This document shows, one piece after another, positions 6,735 through 11,059 of a stretch of 33,762 nucleotides of DNA (position 1 is the stretch's first letter; each line of letters begins with the position of its first letter). The stretch lies in contig MWBZ01000036.1 in the NCBI GenBank assembly GCA_002069765.1, positions 1 through 33,762 of the forward strand, in the 5' to 3' direction. The translations under genes and the position numbers were made by a program. The notes under the pieces are model-generated. The model was not told the DNA's origin and ran no database searches. It worked only from the letters and a program-made list of their open reading frames with translations. This DNA is from a bacterium ADurb.Bin243. Lineage in GTDB: Bacteria; Muiribacteriota; UBA9980.

Positions 6735-8969
6735 ATGTTAAAAGAAAAGATATCCGAGCTGAAAATCTTAATAGTCGAAGACAACGCGCTGGAAAGGAAA
6801 ACGATTTCGGCGTTTCTTAAGATGTCCGGCTATTTTAATTTTGAAGAGGCTTCGAATAAGCGGGAGGCGCTCGAAAAAATTTATCTTTATAAGCCGGATG
6901 TAGTGCTCATGGATATTTCGCTCGACGAAGCCCAGGCCGGACTCGAAGTGGCGGAGCTTATTCATAACGACGAGAATATAGATACCGCGCTGATTTATAT
7001 TACCGCCCACTCGCGCCAGGAAGTATTCGACCGGGCAAAGATCACCAATCCTTATGGTTATATTATAAAACCTTTTACCAGAGAGTCGCTCGCTATTTCC
7101 GTCGAGATGGCTTTCAACCGCAAAATGCTAGAGTTCCGTTTAAAAGAAAGCGCGCAAATTTTCAAAACCTCCGTAGAAACGATGCTCGATTGCTTCGGGA
7201 TTTACAGCGCGGTCAGGGATGCGAACGGCGCGATCGTCGATTTTACTATCGAATACGTCAACGCTTCCGCCTGCGCGGGAAATAAAATGAGCCGCGAAGA
7301 GCAGGTGGGGAAAAAACTTTGCGAGATATTGCCGTCGCATCGTATTAACGGCCTTTTTGAAGAATACTGCAGAGTGGTCGATGAAAAAAAGCCTTTAATA
7401 AAAAATGATTTCGTGGTTACCGATGAAAAAAAGCCTTATGCTCAAAGGATTTTCGATATAAGGGCGGTCAATTTAAAGGATGGTTTCGCGGCGGCCTGGC
7501 GCGATGTCGGAGAAAGGAAAAAAGCCGAAGAGGCGCTTATAAGAAGCGAAGAAAAGTACCGCGACATAGTCGAAAATTTGAGCGAAGGATTCTGGTTCGT
7601 AGACAACAATTTAAAAACTATTTTCGTCAACAAAAAAATGAACGAAATACTCGGCTACGGAGTGGATGAGCTTTGCGGCCGGCGTATAGCCGATCATATT
7701 TATGAAGAACAGCTTGAGATTTTTCATAAAAATGTCGAAAGCCTTAAGGCGGGTGTAAAAAACCAGTTCTCGCTTTTGCTTAACCATAAGAAAGGTCATC
7801 AGGTTTATGTAAAAGCGACTCTAAGCGAATTTACCGATAATTTTGGCCGGGTGAAGGGGATTTTCGCCTTTTTTAACCATAATACTTCGGTGGTGAATAT
7901 CGCCGAAGAAATGGAATCGCGGGATGAATATTCCGAGTTTATATCTTCAAGAAAGCTGCTTGTCGGCAACAGCAAATTCGTCAATGATTTATATACGATA
8001 TTACCGTCTATAGCCGAAAGCGATTGCAACGTCCTTATAGAAGGCCCGTCGGGGGCAGGAAAGAGTTTGATAGGAAGGACTATCCATCAGGCTTCCGAAC
8101 GCAAGGACGCCCCGTTTGTAGTCGTAAATTGCGGCGCGCTTCCGGACGCGCTTATTGAATCCGAGCTGTTCGGCTATGTTAAAGGCGCGTTTACCGACGC
8201 CAAAAAAGACAAGCCGGGCAAATTTTCTATAGCTTCCGGGGGGACTATATTGCTTGACGAAATAGGCGAGCTGCCGCTTCATCTTCAGGTGAAAACGCTT
8301 CACGTTATAGAGGATAAAATGTTCGAGCCGCTCGGATCGAATGTTTCGCAAAAGGTAGACGTGAGAATAATCGCCGCCACCAACAAAAACCTTCTCCAAT
8401 TGATCGAACAGAAGAAATTCAGGGAAGACCTTTATTACAGGCTTAAAATCGTAAATATTAAAGTGCCCGCTCTCAAGGACCGCAAAGAGGATATTTTGCT
8501 TTTAGCCAAGCATTTTATAAAAAAGTTAAATCAGAAGTATGGCAAAAATATAAACTGTATATCCGATACTCTTATAAAGTTTCTTTTGTCATATAATTTT
8601 CCGGGCAATGTAAGAGAGTTATATAATATTTTTGAGCACGCTTTCGTTTTTTCTAACAGCTCGATAATCGATATAGAGCAGCTGTCCGAAGATTATCTGG
8701 AGATTTATAAAAAAAATGTAACTCCGAATCGTGATGGTATGGTTACAAATTTGCCGGGGAAGGGTTTTGCGGGTGAATTGCCCGATAGAACTATTAACGG
8801 CATCGGCCCGTTAATTGATAAAGCTCGGGATAACAAAGAATATTCCGAACTTTTAAAGGCTCTTGAATTATTTAATAATAATAGGAATAAAACCGCTGAT
8901 TATTTAAAGATAAGCCGTATGGCGTTATGGCGCCGTATGAAAAAATACGGCCTTCTGGAGATGTTATAA
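6735..8969 (+). CDS. Sigma-54-dependent response regulator: receiver-PAS-PAS-AAA+-Fis-type HTH
   Basis: The protein is a 744-residue sigma-54 activator. A receiver domain (1-125) has D60 as phospho-acceptor, T90 and K112. Two PAS domains follow (about 143-260 and 270-385). The AAA+ domain has Walker A GPSGAGKS (437-444), Walker B TILLDE (504-509) and arginine-finger region FREDLYYRL. The C-terminus (about 705-744) is a Fis-type helix-turn-helix ending NRNKTADYLKISRMALWRRM. The sigma-54 contact loop reads GAFTDA (484-489) rather than GAFTGA, with the key threonine kept. It should respond to phosphorylation and possibly a PAS ligand, and remodel closed sigma-54 polymerase complexes. No partner kinase is adjacent. 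It probably shares the dinG-radical SAM transcript. Clustered TGTAAC sites begin in its last 250 bases, and a sigma-54 promoter lies 330 bases beyond the stop, the obvious candidate target. Confidence 0.95.
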   Translation: MLKEKISELKILIVEDNALERKTISAFLKMSGYFNFEEASNKREALEKIYLYKPDVVLMDISLDEAQAGLEVAELIHNDENIDTALIYITAHSRQEVFDRAKITNPYGYIIKPFTRESLAISVEMAFNRKMLEFRLKESAQIFKTSVETMLDCFGIYSAVRDANGAIVDFTIEYVNASACAGNKMSREEQVGKKLCEILPSHRINGLFEEYCRVVDEKKPLIKNDFVVTDEKKPYAQRIFDIRAVNLKDGFAAAWRDVGERKKAEEALIRSEEKYRDIVENLSEGFWFVDNNLKTIFVNKKMNEILGYGVDELCGRRIADHIYEEQLEIFHKNVESLKAGVKNQFSLLLNHKKGHQVYVKATLSEFTDNFGRVKGIFAFFNHNTSVVNIAEEMESRDEYSEFISSRKLLVGNSKFVNDLYTILPSIAESDCNVLIEGPSGAGKSLIGRTIHQASERKDAPFVVVNCGALPDALIESELFGYVKGAFTDAKKDKPGKFSIASGGTILLDEIGELPLHLQVKTLHVIEDKMFEPLGSNVSQKVDVRIIAATNKNLLQLIEQKKFREDLYYRLKIVNIKVPALKDRKEDILLLAKHFIKKLNQKYGKNINCISDTLIKFLLSYNFPGNVRELYNIFEHAFVFSNSSIIDIEQLSEDYLEIYKKNVTPNRDGMVTNLPGKGFAGELPDRTINGIGPLIDKARDNKEYSELLKALELFNNNRNKTADYLKISRMALWRRMKKYGLLEML
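8718..8747. promoter_or_regulatory. Outlying TGTAAC / GTTACA half-sites inside the activator gene
   Basis: TGTAAC lies at 8718-8723 and GTTACA, within GGTTACAAAT, at 8742-8747, inside the 3' part of the sigma-54 activator gene. They match the half-sites concentrated after its stop codon. They fall in coding sequence between the AAA+ domain and the HTH, so they may be chance or distal sites of the same operator array. Confidence 0.3.
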
Positions 8970-8974
8970 CAAAA

Positions 8975-8996
8975 TGTAACGGCGGAAAAATGTAAC
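8975..8996. promoter_or_regulatory. Tandem TGTAAC half-sites directly after the activator gene
   Basis: Two direct copies of AAAATGTAACG lie at 8971-8981 and 8987-8997, with TGTAAC at 8975-8980 and 8991-8996, 16 bases apart start to start. They share the hexamer of the palindrome at 9076-9089 and probably belong to the same protein-binding array. The likely binder is the activator encoded immediately upstream, which is inference from position. Confidence 0.45.
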
Positions 8997-9069
8997 GATT
9001 TTTGTTCGGGCTCTTTGATTTTGTTGAAAAATGCGTTTTATGCAAATGAAAGCGTGTTTTGGGAAAATG

Positions 9070-9108
9070 ATAACGGTTACAAATGTAACTTTATAACGGT
9101 TACAAATG
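9070..9108. promoter_or_regulatory. Palindromic GTTACAAATGTAAC element and direct repeat, probable upstream activator sequence
   Basis: A 14-base palindrome, GTTACA-AA-TGTAAC, occupies 9076-9089. The 16-base word ATAACGGTTACAAATG occurs at 9070-9085 and again at 9093-9108, 23 bases later (about two helical turns). Fis-type sigma-54 activators bind such palindromes, usually 80-250 bases upstream of the -24/-12 promoter. The sigma-54 promoter at 9300-9316 lies about 190-230 bases downstream, which fits. That the upstream gene product is the binder is inferred from location. Confidence 0.6.
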
Positions 9109-9299: not shown

Positions 9300-9316
9300 T
9301 TGGCACGATATTTGCT
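9300..9316 (+). promoter_or_regulatory. Sigma-54 (-24/-12) promoter
   Basis: TTGGCACGATATTTGCT matches the sigma-54 consensus at essentially every conserved position: TGGCACG for the -24 element, four bases, then TTGCT for -12. The second G of GG (9303) and the C of GC (9315) are 12 bases apart, the strict spacing required. Transcription should begin near 9327. It lies about 330 bases after a sigma-54 activator gene and about 25 bases before a structured terminated sequence, and no gene begins before that terminator. Confidence 0.8.
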
Positions 9317-9326
9317 TAATAAATTG

Positions 9327-9425
9327 TGGCACTTAACGAACCCAATTTATGCCGTTGCGAACAGCTGAAATATTAAGCACTTTCAGCGCTTCAATTTGAT
9401 GTGACGTTCGCGACGGCTTTTTTTT
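9327..9425 (+). ncRNA. Predicted sigma-54-dependent small RNA of about 100 nt
   Basis: The start is inferred from the -24/-12 promoter; the end is the T-run of an intrinsic terminator. The predicted transcript has an unstructured A/C-rich 5' part (about 9327-9350), including GUGGCACUUAACGAACCC. A two-level hairpin follows: a 12-pair outer stem (9351-9362 with 9406-9417, one G-U pair) and an inner 7-pair stem (GCTGAAA 9364-9370 with TTTCAGC 9381-9387) around a 10-base loop. No open reading frame with a ribosome site lies within it. Alternatives are a sigma-54-driven leader with an attenuator reading into the RNase gene, or a terminator of incoming transcription. I recognise no known RNA family. 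Confidence 0.6.
9351..9425 (+). terminator. Strong intrinsic terminator
   Basis: GCCGTTGCGAAC (9351-9362) pairs over 12 positions with GTTCGCGACGGC (9406-9417), with one G-U wobble. Eight T residues (9418-9425) follow at once, then further T-rich sequence. The large loop contains a nested 7-pair hairpin. It separates the sigma-54 promoter from the sigma-70 promoter of the RNase gene. Confidence 0.8.
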
Positions 9426-9447: not shown

Positions 9448-9476
9448 TTGAAACTTTTCCAAATATTTAATATAAT
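9448..9476 (+). promoter_or_regulatory. Sigma-70 promoter of the RNase E/G gene
   Basis: TTGAAA at 9448-9453 and TATAAT at 9471-9476 are separated by exactly 17 bases. Transcription should begin near 9483, giving an A/T-rich leader of about 100 nt before the TTG start at 9584. The promoter lies just after a terminator, so the RNase operon is independent of the sigma-54 unit unless that terminator is read through. Confidence 0.8.
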
Positions 9477-9583: not shown

Positions 9584-11059
9584 TTGGAGAAAAAAATTAT
9601 TATTCATGTCGATGACGACGAAACCCAGATTGTTATTCTCGAAGATAACAAACTGGCCGAATTTTATGTAGAGCGCGAAGAGTCGCTCCGAATCGTTGGA
9701 AACATATATAAAGGAAAAGTTTCCAACGTTCTTCCCGGGATGCAGTCGGCCTTTGTCGACGTAGGCCTTGAAAAAGACGTTTTTTTGCATATCGACGATT
9801 ACCACATAGAAGGCGTTGAAAAAGACGACGCCATAAGCATGAAAGACATTTCCATCAGAGACGTACTGCAGGTCGGCCAGGAAATAGTGGTGCAGATAAT
9901 GAAAGACCCTCTCGGCACCAAAGGCGCCAGAGGCACTACTTTTCTTACGCTTCCCGGACGCTTTTGCGTGCTTTTGCTCAACGAAAAAAGCATTTACGTT
10001 TCGCGCCGCATCACCGACGAGAGCGAACGCGCGAGGCTGAAATCCATCGGAGATAAGCACTGCCCCGAAGACATGGGCCTTATTATAAGAACGGCCGCTT
10101 CCAACTCCACCAGCGAAATAACCGAAGAAGAAATAGAAACGGATATCAAGTTCCTTCTTCAGCTATGGGACAAAATCGTGGGCAGAATACATAAATCAGG
10201 CGTTTATGCCATGATACATAACGAATTGAATATAGCCATGAAAATCCTGCGCGATTTATTCACTCACGACGTAAGCGAAATATACGTCGATTCCGAAGAA
10301 CAGTATATGAAATTGCGCGAATATTTCGAATTTATGGCGCCTCGCGAAGTCGAGAAGCTAAAATTATACAAAGACGAAGTTTTTATCTTTGAAAAAATGG
10401 GAATAGACCGCCAGATCGACCGCGCGCTTAAGACCCACGTATGGCTCAATTGTGGCGGATATATTATTATCCAGAAAACGGAGGCCCTTACCGCTATCGA
10501 TGTAAATACAGGTAAATTTACCGGTCAGGACGATCTCGAAGAAACCGTATTTAAAACCAATCTGGAAGCTGCATATGAAATAGCCCGCCAGATAAGGATT
10601 CGCGGTATCGGCGGAATAATAATAGTCGACTTTATAGATATGATAAAAGATGATCATAAAAATAAAATAATGGAAGTAATGCGCGAAAACTTTAAAAAAG
10701 ACAAATCGAAAAACTCCATTATAGGCATCACCGAGTTCGGACTCGTAGAAATCACGCGCGAGCGCGTTTCAAAATCCATAAACGAAGTTCTTCTGCAGCA
10801 TTGCCCGTATTGTAAGGGCACCGGCAAAGTTTACGCGTCGAAATTAATTTCTAATAAAGTCAGAAGCGAAATCGCTAAAATGGCTAAAATGTCCGAGTCG
10901 GATAAAATCCTGGTCAACACTCATCCCGACGTGGCGGCCCACCTGCTCGGCGAAGAAGGCGAGCGCGTCAAGCTGCTCGAAACCCGCCTCGGCAAAAGCA
11001 TTTTTGTTCGCGCTGACGAGACTTATCATGTCGAGCAAATTCAGGTAAGCGTTATGTAG
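9584..11059 (+). CDS. rng: Ribonuclease E/G family endoribonuclease
   Basis: This 491-residue protein is the catalytic core of RNase G/E, which cuts single-stranded A/U-rich RNA and acts in rRNA maturation and mRNA decay. An S1 domain (about 35-120, VGNIYKGKVSNVLPGMQSAF) comes first. The DNase I-like site follows, with AIDVNTGKF (D306) and IIVDFID (D349), matching the magnesium-binding D303 and D346 of E. coli RNase E. The zinc-link CPYCKGTG (C407, C410) lets the enzyme dimerise. There is no long C-terminal degradosome scaffold, so it is of RNase G size. I chose TTG 9584 because AAAGGGG ends 8 bases before it; the longer frame from TTG 9545 adds residues unlike the family, and ATG 9579 is out of frame. 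It probably leads a four-gene transcript. Confidence 0.95.
   Translation: MEKKIIIHVDDDETQIVILEDNKLAEFYVEREESLRIVGNIYKGKVSNVLPGMQSAFVDVGLEKDVFLHIDDYHIEGVEKDDAISMKDISIRDVLQVGQEIVVQIMKDPLGTKGARGTTFLTLPGRFCVLLLNEKSIYVSRRITDESERARLKSIGDKHCPEDMGLIIRTAASNSTSEITEEEIETDIKFLLQLWDKIVGRIHKSGVYAMIHNELNIAMKILRDLFTHDVSEIYVDSEEQYMKLREYFEFMAPREVEKLKLYKDEVFIFEKMGIDRQIDRALKTHVWLNCGGYIIIQKTEALTAIDVNTGKFTGQDDLEETVFKTNLEAAYEIARQIRIRGIGGIIIVDFIDMIKDDHKNKIMEVMRENFKKDKSKNSIIGITEFGLVEITRERVSKSINEVLLQHCPYCKGTGKVYASKLISNKVRSEIAKMAKMSESDKILVNTHPDVAAHLLGEEGERVKLLETRLGKSIFVRADETYHVEQIQVSVM

Follow-up and report, generated by a model that had tools for sequence, protein, structure and literature searches.

The window, i.e. 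the whole stretch of 33,762 nucleotides analysed here, quite probably encodes a sigma-54-dependent, trans-acting regulatory small RNA (sRNA) of about 100 nt, which would be controlled by the activator gene lying next to it. A sigma-54-controlled regulatory sRNA beside its activator was also the main reading of an earlier note on this DNA (the original prediction), and both the sequence and its conservation across four congeners argue for it. For the comparisons, 40 genomes of the phylum were used, four of the genus and 36 others. The congeners of the window genome (G000; 5.0 Mb in 317 contigs) are JAKPTH010000362 (G001), Candidatus Wallbacteria GWC2_49_35 (G002) and UBP16 UBA6123 (G003); "four congeners" or "four species" hereafter means the window genome together with these three, all of them Ca. 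Wallbacteria of one genus, where the window organism is placed by way of its congeners. The features of the locus are collected in Table 1.

Table 1. Features of the sRNA locus, in window coordinates.
Feature	Position	Strand	Basis or remark
Candidate activator gene: receiver (11-121), PAS domains, AAA+ sigma-54 interaction domain, Fis-type HTH	6735-8969	+	Pfam, motifs and orthologues
Candidate enhancer (UAS), five half-sites	8975-9104	.	Half-site enrichment; palindrome
Half-sites TGTAAC	8975-8980, 8991-8996, 9084-9089		
Half-sites GTTACA	9076-9081, 9099-9104		
Palindrome GTTACAAATGTAAC	9076-9089		Between activator gene and sigma-54 promoter
Sigma-54 promoter, -24/-12 TGGCACGATATTTGCT	9301-9316	+	Perfect consensus; element kept in 4/4 congeners
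Terminated non-coding RNA, ~100 nt	about 9326-9425	+	Strict conservation from predicted start across RNA; no conserved ORF
Single-stranded 5' block GUGGCACUUAACGAACCCAAUU, presumed seed or contact region	9326-9349	+	Conserved in four species; unpaired in all four folds
Intrinsic terminator, 12-bp stem GCCGUUGCGAAC/GUUCGCGACGGC and nested hairpin with invariant loop AAUAUUAAGCAC	9350-9425	+	Fold; compensatory changes in the consensus fold
Sigma-70-type promoter of rng, TTGAAA-17-TATAAT	9448-9476	+	Promoter scan; same elements visible in congeners
rng, RNase E/G family (RNase G) gene, TTG start	9584-11059	+	PF10150, E 6e-99; neighbour, not thought part of the RNA unit

The original prediction had described a near-perfect -24/-12 promoter, a start about ten bases past it, then a strong terminator (12-pair stem, nested 7-pair hairpin, eight T) with no gene in between, and an RNase gene with its own sigma-70 promoter beyond. 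The description holds, and the promoter match proves to be perfect (TTGGCACGATATTTGCT spans 9300-9316). The perfect TGGCACGNNNNTTGCW occurs only once in the window, and a -24/-12 scan of the window with two mismatches allowed gave a count no higher than chance. Genome-wide there are six perfect TGGCACGNNNNTTGCT sites; by inspection, four lie just 5' of gene starts, while the present one and that at locus L022 (see below) precede an ORF-less terminated RNA. The window genome has one rpoN gene, and no sigma-70 promoter overlying the RNA start came out of the promoter scan. With the -12 element set at C9315, the predicted +1 falls at about 9326-9328, which is where the strictly conserved block begins. 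A match to the -24/-12 region in genome G033 was rejected as a chance match within coding DNA. Folding of 9326-9425 reproduced the terminator, i.e. the 12-bp stem, the nested 7-bp hairpin and then the T8 tract (9418-9425), at -29 kcal/mol with z = -3.15; a simple terminator scanner had missed it because it takes loops of 3-8 nt only. No ORF between promoter and terminator is conserved across the four congeners, and the sigma-70-type promoter of rng recurs in them. As for known families, the RNA has no Rfam match at the gathering score and nothing meaningful at E up to 5, and no covariance model of Qrr, GlmY/GlmZ or other Rfam sRNA families matched it; the RNA family thus appears to be new and absent from Rfam.

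The same order of elements is shared by all four congeners: activator gene, GTTAC half-sites, -24/-12, RNA, terminator, rng promoter and rng. Within this order, conservation steps up at the predicted +1. From the activator stop to -25 the identity to the window is 60% in G001, 30% in G003 and 19% in G002, whereas for the RNA's 5' block of 25 nt the figures are 100%, 96% and 96%, respectively. The 22-mer TGTGGCACTTAACGAACCCAAT of the RNA 5' end is identical in 4/4 congeners; among 382 genomes it was found in no other at 0-2 mismatches, and at three mismatches it has a match in two unrelated genomes. Both the -24/-12 element and the stem, on whose conservation in related genomes the original prediction depended, are kept in all four. 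In the stem, every alignment cell with letters on both sides is paired, and across the four sequences two pairs changed on both sides, from U-A to C-G and from C-G to U-A. When the stem partners were slid by 1-3 columns the pairing fell to 33-44%, versus 99% unshifted, and the covariation exceeds shuffles only weakly with n = 4 sequences. The covariance search for the hairpin in relatives, which had been proposed with the prediction, was run with a model of the RNA and scored 113-127 bits in the four congeners and at most 28 bits in the 36 other phylum genomes. The best non-genus match, that of 28 bits, is a terminator by inspection, and the best of the weak matches inspected outside the genus lack the 5' block, being either coding DNA or terminators of a generic kind. 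Beyond the genus, none of the genomes searched yielded the RNA.

The original prediction had also pointed to the activator gene beside the RNA as its possible switch, and what surrounds that gene is consistent with the proposal: it is adjacent and carries a sigma-54 interaction domain, rpoN is present, and candidate enhancer sites lie between it and the RNA. The activator matches PF00072, PF00989/PF08448, PF00158 (E 4e-64) and PF02954, with a Walker A motif GPSGAGKS and a receiver motif MDIS, and its orthologues adjoin the same RNA in three congeners. Its sigma-54-contacting loop reads GAFTDA instead of GAFTGA (8184-8201, codons 484-489), a form common to the activator, its congener orthologues and a paralogue. 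Between the activator stop and the promoter (331 nt), five TGTAAC/GTTACA half-sites are observed versus 0.12 expected, and the matching interval holds seven in G001, four in G003 and four in G002. The number, order and distance of the half-sites differ between species, and G003 is without the full palindrome. The palindrome GTTACA-N(1-4)-TGTAAC is local to this locus, with one occurrence in the 5.0-Mb genome, and the other sigma-54 promoters examined have none or one half-site within 350 bp upstream. Two more half-sites lie in the 3' part of the activator gene (TGTAAC 8717-8722 and GTTACA 8742-8747). On these grounds of sequence, the adjacent activator probably controls the RNA via the GTTAC half-sites.

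Further palindromes were met in the congeners. Contig C231 of G001 (L140, 1-2000) carries a paralogous PAS-AAA+-HTH activator of 42% identity followed by GTTACA/TGTAAC boxes including a second palindrome, and then by a weaker -24/-12 (TGGCATGATTTATGC) with a CheA-like gene ~210 nt on. Since this paralogous activator also adjoins a palindrome, the GTTACA/TGTAAC motif fits the activator sub-family; at the same time the similar boxes beside a paralogue count, like the variation of the half-sites between species, against the link of the sites to this one activator. A non-coding stretch of contig C242 of G002 (L138, 1501-1560) has a GTTACAAAATGTAAC palindrome and several TGTAAC boxes, near which no activator gene or -24/-12 was recognised.

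A working scheme can be put forward as follows. A signal would switch on the receiver/PAS-AAA+-HTH activator, which may then bind the GTTAC half-sites and open the sigma-54 promoter; sigma-54 polymerase would make the ~100-nt RNA, which its own terminator would stop short of the rng promoter; and the invariant single-stranded 5' end, perhaps together with the invariant hairpin loop, would contact target mRNAs or a protein. We infer that the RNA is expressed, is controlled by the adjacent activator and acts by base pairing. Among RNAs that have an intrinsic terminator and whose single-stranded 5' end is conserved, base pairing is the mode of action met most often. Antisense matches to GGCACUUAACGAACCC number 17-23 per genome in the four genomes, slightly above the 10-15 of a reversed control, and among those inspected in the four genomes none was convincing as a recurrent start-site target of the 5' block. 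A 127-aa ORF pair (G000:C80 and G001:C168) was set aside as a target, being one pair seen, from the two closest species. The pairing of the 5' block with the start regions of the enhancer-binding protein gene and of rng was no better than shuffles, and that of the hairpin loop with the rng start region was weak (z -1.6). Hfq (PF17209) was not found in the 96%-complete window genome by a search that was positive in 5 of 14 control genomes, therefore any pairing would have to do without Hfq or rely on a different chaperone.

The main rival to a base-pairing sRNA is a protein-binding RNA, a sponge or GlmY-like decoy which titrates an RNA-binding protein. The invariant single-stranded block and the loop could be protein contacts, the search for target mRNAs gave none, and the wiring is as in CrcZ and GlmY. 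Against this, the RNA has no repeated binding motif of the sponge kind: it is without GGA motifs and without AANAANAA motifs, so that the multiple GGA motifs in loops that mark a CsrA sponge of CsrB/RsmZ type are absent, and of the marks of a CrcZ-type Hfq/Crc sponge, repeated A-rich CA motifs and the Hfq protein itself, neither was found. We consider such a decoy unlikely. A small peptide gene behind the sigma-54 promoter is extremely improbable: the window does have an ATG frame of 16 codons at 9349, but it lacks a preceding Shine-Dalgarno sequence, is frameshifted in G001 and likewise not preserved in G002 or G003, and the sequence changes spare the stem, not codons.

The position in front of rng suggests yet another reading, in which sigma-54 transcription passes the terminator under some condition, by attenuation or in a riboswitch-like way, and raises RNase G, the RNA being a conditional leader of rng. 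The RNA indeed lies directly 5' of rng in 4/4 congeners, and the rng of the window shares 96% identity with that of G002 or G003. This reading is disfavoured because the terminator is conserved, its stem and T tract intact in all four, and because the rng promoter, which follows the terminator in the congeners as well, is separate. The only obvious antiterminator pairing, that of CGAAC (9337-9341) with GUUCG of the 3' stem, is by eye not maintained in G002, where the stem is now GUGAAC/GUUCAC with the 5' block unchanged; no conserved antiterminator fold was seen by eye in the four congeners, nor is there an Rfam riboswitch match. What is more, rng occurs without the RNA across the phylum: the gene is found in 37/40 genomes and the RNA stands in front of it in the genus only. 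Outside the genus, rng closely follows a DUF2344 gene at 17 loci, usually with a radical-SAM gene before the latter, and an activator upstream of rng was not found in any locus examined there. Within the genus, the space from DUF2344 to rng is taken up by the activator gene together with the RNA, and they therefore behave as one unit, while the proximity of rng looks like a matter of the insertion site. Taken with these points, a leader of rng seems even less likely than a decoy, and the trans-acting sRNA is the reading that we retain.

At L022 (1501-1670; G000:C21:42694 onwards) another perfect -24/-12 site stands before a terminated RNA that has no ORF. Like the window RNA, it adjoins an NtrC-type regulator gene and is conserved in 4/4 congeners, with a core identical in all four; unlike it, the L022 RNA is longer (~140 nt) and its response regulator gene is convergent, whereas that of the window lies upstream. 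An enhancer-like inverted repeat, TTGTGCGTA..TACACACAA, is found upstream, and the phylum yielded no further occurrence of the 26-nt core. The best local match between the two RNAs is not significant (P 0.24), i.e. no common motif was detected. That the design recurs in the genus is shown by this unrelated sigma-54 RNA with its neighbouring NtrC-type regulator; a differently relaxed -24/-12 scan (7 matches) gave no third ORF-less RNA. Other strong -24/-12 sites (L019, L020, L021, L024, L026 and L030) each stand before a gene, by eye including a sigma-70-family factor and receiver-domain proteins, and several have upstream inverted repeats, so the sequence could reveal a large part of the sigma-54 regulon. 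It is possible, and we propose it only tentatively, that the genus uses dedicated enhancer-binding proteins with a single sRNA as their main output, that at least two such activator-RNA pairs exist, independent of each other and with RNAs that are not related, and that in a cell apparently without Hfq its sigma-54 signalling runs via Hfq-independent riboregulators.

An apparently undescribed sRNA family is thereby added for a candidate phylum of which a literature search returned passing mentions only. The wiring in which a sigma-54 activator sits beside its own sRNA, best known from gamma-proteobacteria, is suggested to recur far outside them, with two cases in a single genome. Both the activator-RNA link and the target pairing are open to direct test, thanks to the invariant 5' block and to a palindrome that is unique in the genome.

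Regarding known systems, in the CbrB-CrcZ/CrcY system of Pseudomonas and Azotobacter crcZ adjoins cbrB, and CrcZ is a longer RNA with repeated CA motifs which bind Hfq/Crc. There, as is proposed here, an NtrC-family activator drives an sRNA from a sigma-54 promoter; unlike CrcZ, the window RNA is without CA repeats, Hfq was not found in its genome and it has no Rfam match. The CbrB subsites upstream of crcZ are TGTTAC/GTAACA (PMC6296734). These have the GTTAC core in common with the window half-sites, which is a lead and not a proof of relation, and the window half-sites form GTTAC-N4-GTAAC instead of the CbrB spacing. In Vibrio, qrr1 adjoins luxO. LuxO is a receiver-AAA+-HTH activator driving Qrr1-4 from sigma-54 promoters (PMC4878744), and the window resembles this pair in combining an activator of that architecture with an sRNA from a sigma-54 promoter. 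Unlike LuxO, the window activator also has PAS domains and the GAFTDA loop, and the Qrr RNAs act with Hfq and have an Rfam family that the window RNA fails to match. In enterobacteria, the response regulator QseF/GlrR controls the sigma-54 promoter of the sRNA GlmY (PMC7073468). GlmY acts as a decoy that binds RapZ, and its sigma-70 and sigma-54 promoters overlap, whereas for the window RNA the scan gave no sigma-70 promoter across the start and Rfam gave no match. The kind of system is already known from CbrB-CrcZ, LuxO-Qrr and QseF-GlmY, with which the window locus shares the same wiring while being unrelated in sequence.
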